Shown: positions 27,402 through 32,420 of the stretch, in pieces | Numbering within the stretch: the stretch's first letter is position 1 | Layout: each line of letters begins with the position of its first letter | Origin: an uncultured Acidobacteriota bacterium | GTDB lineage: Bacteria > Acidobacteriota > Terriglobia > Terriglobales > Acidobacteriaceae | NCBI GenBank assembly: GCA_903873705.1 | Contig: CAIQPK010000030.1 | Location: 1 to 34,101, forward strand | Length of the DNA: 34,101 nt | Direction: 5' to 3' | Translations under genes and position numbers: made by a program | Notes under the pieces: model-generated | The model's database searches: none | The model's input: the letters and a program-made list of their open reading frames with translations, nothing else | Told to the model about the DNA's origin: nothing

Positions 27402-27430
27402 TTGACATACGGGACGCGAACCATTAGGCT
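27402..27430 (+). promoter_or_regulatory. Promoter of the Cys-rich leader / YeiH operon
   Basis: TTGACA (27402-27407) and TAGGCT (27425-27430) are exactly 17 bp apart. The expected start, 7-10 bases further, falls on G27439 or A27440, which is the first base of the leader ORF's ATG, so its mRNA would be leaderless. A GGGGGT-GGC-ACCCCC hairpin lies 6 bp upstream of the -35 box. Confidence 0.7.
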
Positions 27431-27439
27431 CTACTCCTG

Positions 27440-27520
27440 ATGAAGCAGACCCTCACCGCCGCGACCTGTTGCATGTGTTGTTGCATGCTGCGCTGTTGCG
27501 CCGGTGTCTGTCAGCTCTAG
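27440..27520 (+). CDS. Cys-rich leader peptide (candidate cysteine-responsive attenuator)
   Basis: This is a 26-residue ORF beginning MKQTLTAAT and containing eight cysteines (positions 10, 11, 13, 14, 15, 19, 20, 24), in runs Cys-Cys-Met-Cys-Cys-Cys and Cys-Cys. It ends Gln-Leu-TAG. No ribosome-binding site exists upstream because the promoter abuts the ATG. It is followed 38 bp later by a terminator-type hairpin (27559-27604), then by a small membrane peptide and a YeiH-type transporter gene. Poly-Cys leaderless ORFs that sense cysteine supply by ribosome stalling are established in mycobacteria; in this kind of bacterium the role is inferred. Low Cys-tRNA would stall ribosomes in the Cys run and favour read-through into the transporter. 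Confidence 0.72.
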   Translation: MKQTLTAATCCMCCCMLRCCAGVCQL

Positions 27521-27558
27521 GTAGAAGCCCCCAAACTTCACCTCTGGTTCTCGAAAGC

Positions 27559-27604
27559 ACCCACGCAACGGCTTCCCTCTAAGGGAACGCACAGCGTGGG
27601 TTTT
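27559..27604 (+). terminator. Nested attenuator hairpin after the Cys-rich leader
   Basis: An outer stem ACCCACGC (27559-27566) / GCGTGGGT (27594-27601) ends in TTTT. Inside it is a second perfect stem TTCCCT (27573-27578) / AGGGAA (27582-27587). An alternative pairing AGAAGC (27523-27528) with GCTTCT (27608-27613) could compete when ribosomes stall upstream. It lies between leader peptide and structural genes. Confidence 0.65.
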
Positions 27605-27664: not shown

Positions 27665-27808
27665 ATGGCGCCTCGCCTCAACACATCCGATATCATCGCC
27701 CGCACCGACCATCGCCTCAGCTTCAACGCCGACATCGCCGCCATCGTGCTCGCTGTCGCCCTGGCCGCCATGGTCCGCCTCAACGTGCTTCCCGGCATCA
27801 GCTTCTAA
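27665..27808 (+). CDS. Small single-span membrane peptide upstream of the YeiH transporter
   Basis: This is a 47-residue ORF with AGGAG at 27651-27655, nine bases before ATG, and C-ending codon use like its neighbours. A polar N-terminus (MAPRLNTSDIIARTDHRLSF) leads to a hydrophobic helix (ADIAAIVLAVALAAMVRL) and ends VLPGISF. I recognise no family. Its place, after the attenuator and 45 bp before the transporter start, suggests it is co-expressed with and perhaps associates with that transporter. Its reality rests on the ribosome-binding site, codon use and the transmembrane pattern. Confidence 0.6.
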   Translation: MAPRLNTSDIIARTDHRLSFNADIAAIVLAVALAAMVRLNVLPGISF

Positions 27809-27853: not shown

Positions 27854-28951
27854 TTGTCCGCACAGACCATTTCGCTCCAGCCCGCTTCCGCGGCAACGCC
27901 CTCGCCGGTCAAGCACGCCCTCGTGCTGCTTCCCGGCGTTGCGCTGTTGTTCGGCATCGGCGTGCTCGGCAAGGGCATCGAGGCCTTCTCCACCTGGCTC
28001 CGCACCACGCACAACATCCCTGTTCCCAGCATCGAGTACGTGCTCTGGGCCATCCTCCTCGGCCTCCTCGTCTCCAACACGGTCGGCGTCGCCCCCATCT
28101 TCCGTCCCGGCGTTGCCACCTACGAGCTCTGGCTCAAGTTGGGCATCGTCCTCGTCGGCGCCAGGTTCCTCCTCCAGGACGTTGCCCACATCGGCGGCAT
28201 GAGTCTCCTGCTGGTCGCCATCGAGCTGGTCCTCTCGCTCAGCGTCATGACGCTGCTCGGCCGCATCTTCAACCTCCCGCCCAAGCTCACCTCGCTGCTG
28301 GCCATCGGCTCCAGCATCTGCGGTGTCACGGCCATCATGGCCGCACAGGGCGCCATCGAGCCCGACGAGGAAGACACCGCCACCGCCATCGCCGCCATCC
28401 TCACCCTCGGCGCGTTGGCCCTCTTCACCTTCCCGGCGATCGGCCACGCGCTCCACATGGGCCAGGAAAGCTACGGCATCTGGACCGGTCTCGCCGTCGA
28501 CAACACCGCCGAAGCCACCGTAACCGGCGCCCTCTACGGCGACAAGGCCGGCACCTATGCTGTTCTCGCAAAAACGGCGCGTTCCGCCTTCATCGGCTTC
28601 GTCGTTCTCGGCTACGCGGTTTACTGGGCTTCCAAAGGACAAGCCCATCGCATCGAGAACAAGCCGCTCTTCCTCTGGCAGAAGTTCCCCAAGTTCATCC
28701 TCGGCTTCCTCGCCCTCTCGCTGCTCGCGACAGCCGGCTTCTTCTCTAAGGGGCAGTTGAACTCGCTCGGCAACCTGTCAAAGTGGGCGTTCCTCCCCGC
28801 CTTCGCCGGAGTAGGTCTACGCACTCAACTTCGCGACCTCGTGAATCAAGGCTGGAGACCGATCGTCGTCGGCGTCCTGGGCGAGATCTTCATCGCCCTC
28901 GTCACACTCGGCCTCGTCTTCGCCGCTTACCGTCACGGAGGCGTGCGATGA
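27854..28951 (+). CDS. YeiH/TauZ-type (UPF0324, COG2855) putative sulfate exporter family transporter
   Basis: This 365-residue protein has about ten transmembrane segments. Family signatures: YVLWAILLGLLVSNTVG, FRPGVATYELWLKLGIVLVGARF, the very conserved SSICGVTAIMAAQGAIEPDEEDTATAIA, and WTGLAVDNTAEATVTGALYG. It ends with KWAFLPAFAGVGLRTQLRDL and a last helix. TTG 27854 is the only plausible start. Members near taurine/sulfonate degradation genes (TauZ) were proposed to export sulfate or sulfite. Here the gene lies behind a Cys-rich attenuator, which would switch it on when cysteine is short. That fits acquisition of a sulfur compound better than export. Its stop overlaps the start of a second Cys-containing ORF (ATGA). 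Confidence 0.88.
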   Translation: MSAQTISLQPASAATPSPVKHALVLLPGVALLFGIGVLGKGIEAFSTWLRTTHNIPVPSIEYVLWAILLGLLVSNTVGVAPIFRPGVATYELWLKLGIVLVGARFLLQDVAHIGGMSLLLVAIELVLSLSVMTLLGRIFNLPPKLTSLLAIGSSICGVTAIMAAQGAIEPDEEDTATAIAAILTLGALALFTFPAIGHALHMGQESYGIWTGLAVDNTAEATVTGALYGDKAGTYAVLAKTARSAFIGFVVLGYAVYWASKGQAHRIENKPLFLWQKFPKFILGFLALSLLATAGFFSKGQLNSLGNLSKWAFLPAFAGVGLRTQLRDLVNQGWRPIVVGVLGEIFIALVTLGLVFAAYRHGGVR

Positions 28952-29013: not shown

Positions 29014-29108
29014 CGCAAGAACCAGCTCGAAGTCCCTTTCCAACCGATACCAAAACATGCCACCACGCCATAGCGTGAGTGCGCCCTTATCCCTTTCAGG
29101 AGAACGCC

Positions 29109-32100
29109 ATGATCGCCATTGCCCCTTTGCGACAGTCACGCAAGGTCTTCTATCTCTACCTCGTCATCGCCCTTGTCGTCGCCCTGGCTGTTGGCCTTTC
29201 CAGCCGCGCGCAGGTTGTCGGCGGCACCATCAGCGGCACAGTAGCTGATTCCAGCGGCGCTCTCATCCCCGGCGCAACCGTCCTCATCCACAACACCGAC
29301 ACCGGCACACAGCGCACCCTCACCACCGACGGCACAGGCCGCTTCTCGGCACCCTCCGTTCCCGTTGGCAGCTACGCCGTAACCGCCACTGCCACTGGCT
29401 TTGCCGAGTACAAGCGCACCGGCATCGAGCTCACCGTCGGCCAATCCCTCAACCTCGCCCTCGCCCTCGCCGTCTCCGGCAGCGACACCATCAACGTGGA
29501 CTCCGCTCCTCCGTCGGTCGACACGTCCACCCAGCAAACCTCCGGCCTGGTCGACTCGCGCCAGGTCAAGGAACTCCCCCTCAACGGCCGCAGCTACGAC
29601 CAGCTCGTCACCCTCAACCCCGGAACGGTGAACTATACGGCCCAGCGCTCCGGCTCCGTCGGCACATCGAACTCCTCGGTAGGCAACATGTTCGTCGTCT
29701 CCGGCCGCCGTCCCCAGGACAATCTCTACCTCCTCAACGGCATCGAGTACACCGGCGCCTCCCTCATCAACATCACCCCCGGCGGCACCTCCGGCCAGCT
29801 CCTCGGCGTCGACGCCGTCCGCGAGTTCAACGTAGTGTCTGACACCTACTCTGCTAGCTATGGCAAGCGTCAGGGCGCCCAGGTTTCCATCGTCACCGCA
29901 TCGGGAACGAATGCGATCCATGGCAGCGCCTATGAGTTTCTGCGCAACAGCTTCTTCGACGCCCGCAACTTCTTTGACCAGGCGCGTATTCCCAATTTCC
30001 AGCGCAACAACTACGGCGCTTCACTGGGTGGGCCAATCAAGAAGGACAAAGTATTTCTCTTTGGCAACTACGAAGGCTATCGCCAGAATCTCGGCCTTAC
30101 CGATGTAACCCTCGTGCCTGACAACAACGCACGCCTCGGTTTGTTGCCGGATGCAAAGACGGGCAATCTGGTCAACGTGGGTGTGAACGCATCCGTTGCT
30201 CCGCTGCTGAACCTCTGGCCTGTAGCCAACGGCCCCGAACTGCTGGATCCTACGACGGGTCTTCCCACCGGCATCGCGAAAGCCTTCTCCAACCCAACCC
30301 AGCACATTCGCGAAGATTTCGGAACCGTACGTTTTGATACCAACATCGCTGCCAACGATTTGCTCTTTGCGGTCTACACCGTCGACGACTCCACAGCGCA
30401 CACCCCCACGCAGAATCCGCTGTCACTGATCGACGAAAGCCTGCGTGAGCAGGTGCTTAGTGTGCAAGAACAGCATGTCTTCTCTCCACACCTGCTCAAC
30501 ACGGCACGCGTTGGCTACTCGCGCGCGTCATTCTACTTTCTGGGTTCGTCGACCCCGCTCAACGGAGCTACTGTTCCGGGCTTCTATGCAGGACGCCCTG
30601 TCGGCGCGATCGTCATCGCTGGTTCAACGGCGTCGAACGGCGCTTCACAGATCACCGGCGCTGGCGCTAATGTCGGTTCAAACAACGCTGTTACGCGCAA
30701 TCTCTACACCGCAGACGACCACATCTATCTCACCCGCGGACGGCACACGCTGGAGATCGGCGGCTGGGTTCAGCGTCTCGACTCCAACGACAACCTCGCA
30801 CAGAACCAATACGGACAGGCTTCTTTCGCATCACTGACGACCTTCCTTCAGGGCACCATCAAGACGTTCACCATCGTTCCTTCACCCACACCGCTAAACT
30901 GGCGCACGTGGCTCGGTGCTGCGTATATCGAGGACACGTGGCACGCCACACCGCAGCTGGAAATCCGCGCTGGGCTACGCTCGGAGTCGACTGCCGGATG
31001 GAACGAGCGGCACGGACGCGCTTCCAACTACGGTTTCACCAATGGCGTGATCAACGCAGCCCCCAACATCGGCAACTCGGCTCTCACCGTGAACCGCGCG
31101 AAGTTTCTTCCGCAGCCTCGCCTTGGCCTGGCGTACACGCCTTTTGCCAGCGGCAGGACCAGCATCCGCGCCAGCTTCGGTCTGCACAACTCTCTGCTCG
31201 ACAACCTTGACTACCGTCTCGATCAGACCGCGCCGTATAACGCGACGCTATCTTATTCAGGCACAACCGTCGCTAACCCCGTCTCGGGTGCAACGACGAT
31301 TTCGCCTTCGAATATTCAAACTGATATCAGCACGCCCACGGTCCTCTCGTGGACATTGAAGGTTGAGCAGCAGATAGCTCCGAATACATCGATCACCGTG
31401 GCCTACGTCGGTTCGCACGGCTATCACCAGATACTCTCTGAGGATCAGAACGAAACGCCGTTCGTCGTTTGCCCTGATCCCGCTTGCACTGCGGCAACAG
31501 CAGGTGTGGCACCGCCGGCAAGATTGACCACAGGCTCGATCTACTACCTGCCGCTTGCCAAGGCGAATCCCGCCTATGCCAACACGACTTCCTGGGTTTC
31601 ACAGGGTTCGAGCAGCTATCACGGAGTCGAAGTCGATTTGCATCGCAACTTCGCCAACGGATTGCAGGTCCGCTCGAACTACACGTTCTCAAAGAATCTC
31701 GACAACGGTTCTGCGTGGAATACGTCGGTCTCAGCCAACACACCGGCATTTGTCTCCGTGCCTCAGAAGCCGAGTCTCGACTACGGTCCCGCTGCTACGG
31801 ATGTCCGTCACCTGTTCGCGTTCAACGGCTCTTACGACCTTCCGTTCGGGCACGCCAAACCCTTCCTCGCCAAGAGCGGACATGCGACAGACCTGCTGGT
31901 GTCGGGCATTACCTTGTCTGCCATTTCCAATCTACAGACCGGCTTTCCCTTCACGCCTCAACTTGGCTATAACCCCACCGGCTCGGGCGATTCGCGCAAC
32001 CCTGTCCGCCCGGACATCAACCCCAGCTTCCACGGTTCCCACTACACGCAAGGCACAACCACGCAGCGCGCGAACCAGTTCTTCAACCCTGCAGCCTTCC

Positions 32101-32420
32101 AGGCTCCGGCTTATGGCACCGTCGGTAACCTGGGCCGCGACACGCTCACCGGACCAGGCTACGCGAACCTCGATCTTTCGCTGGCTAAAACAACTATTAT
32201 CACTGAACGCTTCCGTACACAGTTTCGTGCGGAGTTCTTCAACGTCCTGAATCACACCAACCTCGCAACGCCGAATGCGACGATCCTCACGTCTGGGCCG
32301 ACGCAAAGCACCACCGCGGCAACGCGCAATGCGGTCGCGGCGGCATCACCAACCGCGGGCGTCATCACGGGAGCATCGACCAGTCGTCAGATTCAGCTGG
32401 GATTGAAGCTGCTGTTCTAA
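29109..32420 (+). CDS. TonB-dependent receptor with N-terminal carboxypeptidase-regulatory-like domain
   Basis: This is a 1103-residue outer-membrane protein of the Oar-like type abundant in Acidobacteria. ATG 29109 follows AGGAG (6-bp spacing). A signal/anchor (VFYLYLVIALVVALAVGLSSRAQ) precedes a beta-sandwich regulatory domain (GGTISGTVADSSGALIPGA to about residue 120). Then come a plug domain (QVKELPLNGRSYDQLVTLNPG, YLLNGIEYTG, VDAVREFNVVSDTYSASYG) and a large barrel ending in IQLGLKLLF, with the terminal aromatic residue expected for barrel insertion. Such receptors take up large or scarce ligands using TonB energy; the ligand is unknown. Position behind the Cys-rich ORFs suggests a sulfur-containing ligand. 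From about 29830 codon use becomes less strictly C-ending than in the first 700 bp. Confidence 0.92.
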   Translation: MIAIAPLRQSRKVFYLYLVIALVVALAVGLSSRAQVVGGTISGTVADSSGALIPGATVLIHNTDTGTQRTLTTDGTGRFSAPSVPVGSYAVTATATGFAEYKRTGIELTVGQSLNLALALAVSGSDTINVDSAPPSVDTSTQQTSGLVDSRQVKELPLNGRSYDQLVTLNPGTVNYTAQRSGSVGTSNSSVGNMFVVSGRRPQDNLYLLNGIEYTGASLINITPGGTSGQLLGVDAVREFNVVSDTYSASYGKRQGAQVSIVTASGTNAIHGSAYEFLRNSFFDARNFFDQARIPNFQRNNYGASLGGPIKKDKVFLFGNYEGYRQNLGLTDVTLVPDNNARLGLLPDAKTGNLVNVGVNASVAPLLNLWPVANGPELLDPTTGLPTGIAKAFSNPTQHIREDFGTVRFDTNIAANDLLFAVYTVDDSTAHTPTQNPLSLIDESLREQVLSVQEQHVFSPHLLNTARVGYSRASFYFLGSSTPLNGATVPGFYAGRPVGAIVIAGSTASNGASQITGAGANVGSNNAVTRNLYTADDHIYLTRGRHTLEIGGWVQRLDSNDNLAQNQYGQASFASLTTFLQGTIKTFTIVPSPTPLNWRTWLGAAYIEDTWHATPQLEIRAGLRSESTAGWNERHGRASNYGFTNGVINAAPNIGNSALTVNRAKFLPQPRLGLAYTPFASGRTSIRASFGLHNSLLDNLDYRLDQTAPYNATLSYSGTTVANPVSGATTISPSNIQTDISTPTVLSWTLKVEQQIAPNTSITVAYVGSHGYHQILSEDQNETPFVVCPDPACTAATAGVAPPARLTTGSIYYLPLAKANPAYANTTSWVSQGSSSYHGVEVDLHRNFANGLQVRSNYTFSKNLDNGSAWNTSVSANTPAFVSVPQKPSLDYGPAATDVRHLFAFNGSYDLPFGHAKPFLAKSGHATDLLVSGITLSAISNLQTGFPFTPQLGYNPTGSGDSRNPVRPDINPSFHGSHYTQGTTTQRANQFFNPAAFQAPAYGTVGNLGRDTLTGPGYANLDLSLAKTTIITERFRTQFRAEFFNVLNHTNLATPNATILTSGPTQSTTAATRNAVAAASPTAGVITGASTSRQIQLGLKLLF

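Follow-up and report, generated by a model that had tools for sequence, protein, structure and literature searches.

The leader upstream of a yeiH-like transporter gene in a Granulicella-related acidobacterium is, as judged from sequence comparison, very probably a cysteine-sensing, ribosome-mediated transcription attenuator that works through a leaderless leader peptide. The element lies in the window, by which we mean the whole stretch of 34,101 nucleotides that was analysed, and a first-pass annotation had proposed it as a leaderless poly-Cys attenuator in an acidobacterium. That proposal gained support here, since promoter position, Cys codons, stop and hairpin are conserved, the predicted antiterminator is better than 96% of synonymous recodings, and the same device recurs before genes for CysD, CysH and a NirA-like reductase. 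In our judgement attenuation is very likely for this class of elements and likely for the yeiH leader. Anatomy, conservation, pairing potential and gene associations were computed, and from these we infer that the leader ORF is translated, that ribosomes stall and polymerase reads through, and that cysteine is the signal.

All features of the element lie on the + strand. The promoter (27402–27430) consists of TTGACA (27402–27407), a 17-nt spacer and TAGGCT (27425–27430), the latter matching TATAAT at three of six positions and ending 9 nt before the ATG at 27440, as had been annotated. Transcription is predicted to start at this ATG or within about 3 nt of it. The ATG opens the leader ORF (27440–27520; MKQTLTAATCCMCCCMLRCCAGVCQL, then a stop), whose 26 codons include the eight Cys codons previously reported; its CCxCC core, encoded by TGT TGC ATG TGT TGT (27467–27481) and conserved among leaders, is the proposed stall site. 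Downstream lies a putative intrinsic terminator (27559–27604) with an 8-bp outer stem (ACCCACGC/GCGTGGGT), a nested inner hairpin and a following TTT; the hairpin itself (27559–27601) spans 43 nt, has a dG of -24.3 and is located 38 nt 3′ of the leader stop. The earlier description of this hairpin held for its position, its T-run and the perfect outer stem, but the inner stem carries a bulge, so the structure as a whole is not perfect. A generic promoter and terminator scan of the window reported neither the leader promoter nor the attenuator terminator, and both were accepted because they are conserved in relatives. Rfam gave no match at the gathering score in the window and nothing relevant on six further loci.

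For the comparison across relatives we used the best 30 YeiH loci from 200 family genomes together with 31 loci from named GTDB contigs, including Granulicella, Bryocella, Terriglobus, Edaphobacter and Paracidobacterium. Among the loci kept, and with duplicates counted, a Cys-rich short ORF was present upstream in 41 of 42 with a YeiH at least 67% identical; L048 encodes a YeiH 79% identical and yet has neither the leader nor the small ORF described below. Requiring CCxCC and an ATG start yielded 32 non-redundant loci, from which L030, a member of a low-identity clade, was dropped to leave 31. Since these sequences are related, the leader counts are not independent. Promoter position, Cys codons, stop and hairpin are conserved among these leaders, and the first-pass annotation had named conservation of the last three as support. 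A TTGAC box occurred in 31/31 leaders, with a -10-like hexamer (the best-scoring one among spacers of 15–19) at 17 nt in 27 and at 15 nt in 4. CCxCC is nearly fixed, to which the selection of the set by this motif contributes. Core Cys codons 1 and 3 are TGT in every one of the 31, and over whole leaders TGT outnumbers TGC by 149:100, versus 7:20 in long window frames, which serve as a rough proxy. In the 27-sequence leader alignment, which leaves out L033, L055, L002 and L006, the terminator stem shows compensatory changes at columns 116/159 (A-U in 20, G-C in 6) and 123/152 (C-G in 14, U-A in 8).

The position of the promoter and the lack of a ribosome-binding motif are both compatible with a leaderless anatomy. 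The -10-like hexamer ends 3–12 nt 5′ of the ATG in 30 of the 31 leaders, and an SD-like motif (GGAG, GAGG or AGGA at -20 to -4) was found in 0/31, which fits the leaderless arrangement that had been postulated. The exception, L049, has 22 nt between the -10 and the ATG, but an in-frame GTG occurs 7 nt past its -10; in L007 and L042, outside the 31, the leader start is likewise GTG as read by eye. Leaderless genes are predicted to make up 13.3% on average in three Acidobacteria, according to the passages available from PMC3160421, so leaderless initiation is plausible in this host.

In the proposed mechanism, RNA polymerase would start at or beside the AUG at 27440, where a ribosome would initiate without a Shine-Dalgarno site. 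With Cys-tRNA plentiful, the ribosome would pass CCxCC, reach the stop and cover the end of the leader, whereupon the terminator (27559–27601) would form and transcription would stop. With Cys-tRNA scarce, it would stall on CCxCC and leave 27492–27509 free to pair with 27556–27572; this pairing would take up the 5′ arm of the terminator, and with the terminator blocked the polymerase would continue into a small ORF, yeiH and a receptor gene. The operon may, by extension, serve sulfur acquisition during cysteine shortage.

The two strands of the putative antiterminator were examined by pairing analysis and synonymous recoding. The 5′ strand (27492–27509, inside the end of the leader ORF) comprises GCTGTTGCG, GGTG and CT, which can pair respectively with CGCAACGGC, CACC and AG of the 3′ strand (27556–27572, overlapping the 5′ arm of the terminator). 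When folding was modelled with a ribosome assumed to leave the RNA free from 13 nt past the first base of the A-site codon, the pairing probability of the window terminator was 0.00–0.24 with the ribosome on CCxCC, 0.97 with the ribosome at the stop and 0.97 without a ribosome. When the ribosome was placed on the last of the four core Cys codons, the terminator probability at equilibrium fell below 0.5 in only 9 of 30 yeiH leaders. Equilibrium folding was convincing in the window and was rejected as proof of a switch, the terminator dominating in most relatives; the comparison of cognate with non-cognate pairing energies (-20.6 versus -19.3) was set aside as well, there being almost no difference.

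Recoding showed an antiterminator of unequal strength, very strong for most reductase leaders tested, good for the window and weak for many yeiH relatives. Compared with 200 synonymous recodings, the window antiterminator had a z of -2.16, with 4% of recodings as good. The effect was modest over 30 yeiH leaders (mean z -0.71), with 21 below zero and 9 not; L055 was left out of the folding and recoding tests because the script picked a longer hairpin. Leaders of other genes, described below, gave a mean z of -2.99, with 21 of 23 below zero (the exceptions being L159 and L165), in a hand-picked set outside which twelve of the 32 counted non-yeiH leaders fall. The native pairing was unmatched by any of the 200 recodings in 8 of the 12 leaders of reductase genes, in 2 of the 3 of CysD genes, in the only one of CysH and in 1 of the 5 of peroxiredoxins, and eleven leaders of reductase, CysD and CysH genes (8, 2 and 1) reached z values from -3.3 to -7.0, several of the reductase leaders being close relatives. 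The reductase leader of the window genome itself showed no antiterminator advantage (z -0.39, 39% of recodings as good).

The device was sought before other genes with a covariance model, R1, built from 27 yeiH leaders only and spanning CCxCC through the terminator, which was run against the window genome and 200 family genomes. The window genome gave eight matches at E values up to 10, including those before yeiH, a gene for a NirA-like nitrite/sulfite reductase (E 0.006; leader VSFVSTTAACCPRLGAQGPAAVAH, then a stop, opened by a GTG that TATGCT precedes by 6 nt) and a gene for a 1-Cys-type peroxiredoxin (E 0.06; leader MTTVNSISTLSRCCCGCCCCGPCAGESI, then a stop). Five matches (L136, L138, L139, L140 and L141) were not credible, and one of these, the unrelated L136 (E 0.012), scores above the peroxiredoxin match.

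In the family, 44 of the 200 genomes had a match at an E value of 0.01 or below, with 66 matches in total. A Cys ORF was present in 45 of the 52 matches inspected, 13 of them before yeiH and 32 before other genes. As a chance level, of 4000 positions drawn at random from the fetched loci 3.2% had a Cys ORF with at least three Cys, versus 44 of 52 R1 matches. Of the seven matches rejected for want of a Cys ORF, six were another repeated element and one (L187) falls, as read, antisense to the start of a reductase gene. The 32 non-yeiH leaders precede genes for NirA-like reductases (18), CysD (4), CysH (2), peroxiredoxins (4) and TonB/Oar-type receptors (4), the receptor at L171 being only 29% identical to that of the window. 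An in-frame ATG, GTG or TTG 3–12 nt after a -10-like box is possible in 26 of the 32, a raw count with no null. By eye, the terminator stem recurs after the reductase, CysD, CysH and peroxiredoxin leaders. The Cys pattern varies with the target gene (ACCPCP, CCACCC, CCCCCC and CCCGCCCC), and Cys codons persist throughout.

CysD and CysH were above the NCBIfam cut-offs, and their presence among the targets indicates that the putatively regulated genes include members of the cysteine pathway. The peroxiredoxins match PF00578 and PF10417, and the reductases match PF01077 and PF03460. The best models for the reductases, ferredoxin-nitrite reductase and NirA, were both below cut-off, and the family includes nitrite reductases; the enzymes may act on nitrite or on sulfite, the latter being the presumptive substrate here. 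A search of the phylum returned three R1 matches outside the family. In two of them, L198 and L200, from one other family, a Cys ORF and a terminator precede a gene for a tetrapyrrole methylase resembling uroporphyrinogen-III methyltransferase (best models for the L200 fragment, CysG and uroporphyrinogen-III C-methyltransferase); the third, L199, has a two-Cys ORF only and was rejected. L198 and L200 suggest a broader distribution of the device within the phylum.

These data bear on three other explanations of the element, the first of which is translational attenuation in the mycobacterial style, in which a stalled ribosome would free a downstream ribosome-binding site and the hairpin would be incidental. 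This is improbable in our estimate, although leaderless poly-Cys ORFs have their closest reported counterparts in mycobacteria, whose cys-operon leaders are described, in the portions available of PMC1262725, without conserved terminators. Another type of leader, seen before YeiH genes of lower similarity (for example, MKLPLPSATRQLLGCCCR, then a stop), also has no obvious terminator by eye, and the antiterminator is weak in many yeiH relatives. Against it, stem and T-run are conserved with compensatory changes in the window and its relatives, and by eye the terminator returns behind leaders of four other target genes. A peptide that is itself the sensor of a metal or of redox state, or an arrest peptide, with CCxCC binding a ligand and halting its own ribosome, is more doubtful still: the near fixation of CCxCC among yeiH leaders, a set partly selected by the motif, and a peroxiredoxin target would suit it, but the arrangement of Cys differs between targets while the codons are kept, and CysD and CysH are among those targets. 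That a Cys-rich ORF stands by chance beside an ordinary terminator of the upstream gene is most improbable: short ORFs are many in GC-rich genomes and the -10 box is weak, but the ORF is conserved in 31 leaders, and 44 of 52 R1 matches stand against the 3.2% background.

The preferred reading, transcription attenuation, places the element beside several known systems. Canestrari et al. (2020) reportedly described leaderless poly-cysteine sORF attenuators in mycobacteria, which are said to act by release of a ribosome-binding site. The window element resembles these in being a short, Cys-rich, predictedly leaderless ORF upstream of genes, and it differs in belonging to another phylum and to another gene set (yeiH, a small ORF and a TonB-type receptor); moreover, the mycobacterial elements are reported to release the ribosome-binding site without a terminator, whereas the window has a conserved intrinsic terminator and a predicted antiterminator. 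The element appears, by analogy, to work like a classical leader-peptide attenuator.

In the published passages available, leaderless poly-Cys short ORFs of mycobacteria are called cysteine-responsive attenuators (PMC9094748, PMC13236596), and leader peptides with Cys runs are reported before the cys operons of Mycobacterium and P. acnes and before cbs of B. longum (PMC1262725). Like the window, the latter have a short ORF with consecutive Cys codons ahead of genes of sulfur metabolism, and they differ, as far as those passages go, in having the Cys run near the stop and no conserved terminator hairpins. The parallel to mycobacteria that had been drawn for the window extends to the predicted leaderless poly-Cys ORF, but not to the conserved terminator. 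The uORFC-8-2 motif before cysS in Rhodobacterales, for which read-through at scarce Cys-tRNA has been proposed, combines an upstream ORF that carries two Cys codons in tandem with a U-run resembling that of a terminator; it differs in being confined to cysS, to alphaproteobacteria and to two Cys codons, and the passage available does not call the motif leaderless (PMC8632094). In the literature searched (titles, abstract starts and passages, mostly outside subscription papers), we found no cysteine attenuator described in Acidobacteriota, nor the combination of a leaderless leader, a terminator and the present gene set.

The gene that follows the leader in the window is not yeiH. The first-pass annotation correctly placed a YeiH-like gene downstream, but a conserved small ORF (27665–27808, + strand) intervenes, which encodes 47 aa with one hydrophobic segment by inspection and has no Pfam match. 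That annotation had noted neither this ORF nor the receptor gene behind yeiH, nor the wider set of genes with such leaders. Its motif occurs in 31/31 leader loci, with lengths of about 38–63 aa and an uncertain start, and its pattern recurs at 17 of the 19 loci with a less similar YeiH (L014–L030, L058 and L060). A related form, SLDxWAVxLALxLALLVR..VPW, was observed before less similar YeiH genes and, by eye, before the Anaerolineae gene L060. The small ORF may encode a helix or subunit split off from YeiH.

The YeiH-like transporter (27854–28951, + strand) matches PF03601 at 258.2 bits (cut-off 24.5), as the YeiH family does, and scores 112.2 bits with TIGR00698, 'YeiH family putative sulfate export transporter', below the cut-off of 232.6; a search of solved structures by sequence gave no match for it. 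It is followed by a gene for a TonB/Oar-like outer-membrane receptor (29079–32420, + strand, possible start ATG 29109), assigned from domain matches (PF13620 and PF25183). A receptor gene lies 3′ of yeiH on the same strand in 23 of the 31 loci long enough and is absent in 8, two further loci being too short; these receptors are 62–75% identical, the window itself excepted. The generic scan, which also missed the attenuator terminator, found no + strand terminator from 27605 to the start of the receptor gene. In three genomes without this yeiH (G174, G188 and G196), the receptor gene stands behind a Cys leader of its own, its product being 60–72% identical over the part available. The receptor gene of G174 and G188 is arranged divergently from cysD, and there cysD has a Cys leader as well.

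Other leader designs were encountered along the way. Before less similar YeiH genes, other Cys ORFs occur in 24 of 39 loci, and nine of them end in CCCR at the stop. Short ORFs with CCC(C)R immediately before the stop, and with no evident terminator, were noted at L015, L017, L020, L022, L025, L030, L065, L067 and L080; they resemble the actinobacterial layout, giving two leader designs on one YeiH gene family. The cysD gene of the window genome (L090, G000:C3) has a terminator-less leader, MGPLMPTRCPQLSGCC followed by a stop, and one relative (L089) has such a leader too, both short Cys ORFs ending CPQLxGCC at the stop. A repeated element, GTGGCAAGACTCCCTTCGGGTTGAGTC...CATAACGAAGTCCACCCACTTCGTTGC with a strong terminator, was seen at L164, L168, L172, L184, L185 and L188; in G034 and G130 it lies immediately 5′ of the yeiH leader. 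Rfam returned no match on L172, L184 and L188, and the element looks like an undescribed small RNA.

As for the direction of transport by YeiH, it had been suggested that the 'exporter' may instead import a sulfur source, an idea that the data support in part. In its favour are the apparent control of yeiH together with a TonB-type receptor and with genes of assimilation, and the inventory of the window genome, which is 100% complete as listed and holds CysD, CysH and the reductase. In a search that covered SulP, DASS and the sulfate-ABC permease among the possible importers, this genome gave no SulP or DASS match, and the sulfate-ABC permease model gave matches below cut-off only. That YeiH replaces SulP was not borne out as a general rule: in the 200 genomes, 35 had both, 16 YeiH only, 102 SulP only and 47 neither (p = 1.0), and SulP was present in 9 of 13 genomes with a leader-bearing yeiH. 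Since the two are uncorrelated, the replacement argument rests on the window genome and a few others. As a separate observation, a distance of about 3.5 kb separates the SulP gene from the YeiH gene in two genomes (G150:C1:1250838-1256419 and G168:C16:361644-367329).

Given the attenuator, the alternative is that YeiH exports sulfite made in assimilation and acts as a safety valve, which we consider a real possibility somewhat short of probable. The passages available on published YeiH proteins favour sulfite resistance or export: Salmonella YeiH protects from sulfite (PMC12880088), and Hyphomicrobium YeiH, strongly induced by thiosulfate, is called a sulfite exporter (PMC12423496). The lack of complementarity with SulP points the same way. 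The yeiH genes of these two publications have a LysR regulator as neighbour and sulfite or thiosulfate as the signal (PMC12880088, PMC12423496), in which they differ from the window gene. Against export, the predicted derepression at scarce cysteine and the adjacent TonB-type receptor gene fit acquisition better, as does the lack in the window genome of SulP, DASS and above-cut-off sulfate-ABC permease matches. Import of a sulfur source by YeiH is a plausible and slightly favoured reading of the gene context.

Taken to its full extent, the import reading would describe an Acidobacteriota cysteine regulon controlled by leaderless poly-Cys transcription attenuators, comprising a NirA-like sulfite reductase, CysD/CysH, peroxiredoxin and probably siroheme synthesis, together with a three-part envelope system of TonB-type outer-membrane receptor, YeiH and small membrane protein that imports a sulfur source, so that YeiH would be misnamed an exporter in this lineage; we offer this whole only tentatively. 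Apart from this reading, a single cis-element here ties six or more classes of genes in one bacterial family into a putative cysteine regulon and couples a predicted leaderless leader peptide to an intrinsic terminator. The operon would open at cysteine shortage and not at sulfite excess, which gives an independent clue to the role of YeiH, and the outer-membrane receptor becomes a candidate receptor for the sulfur source.
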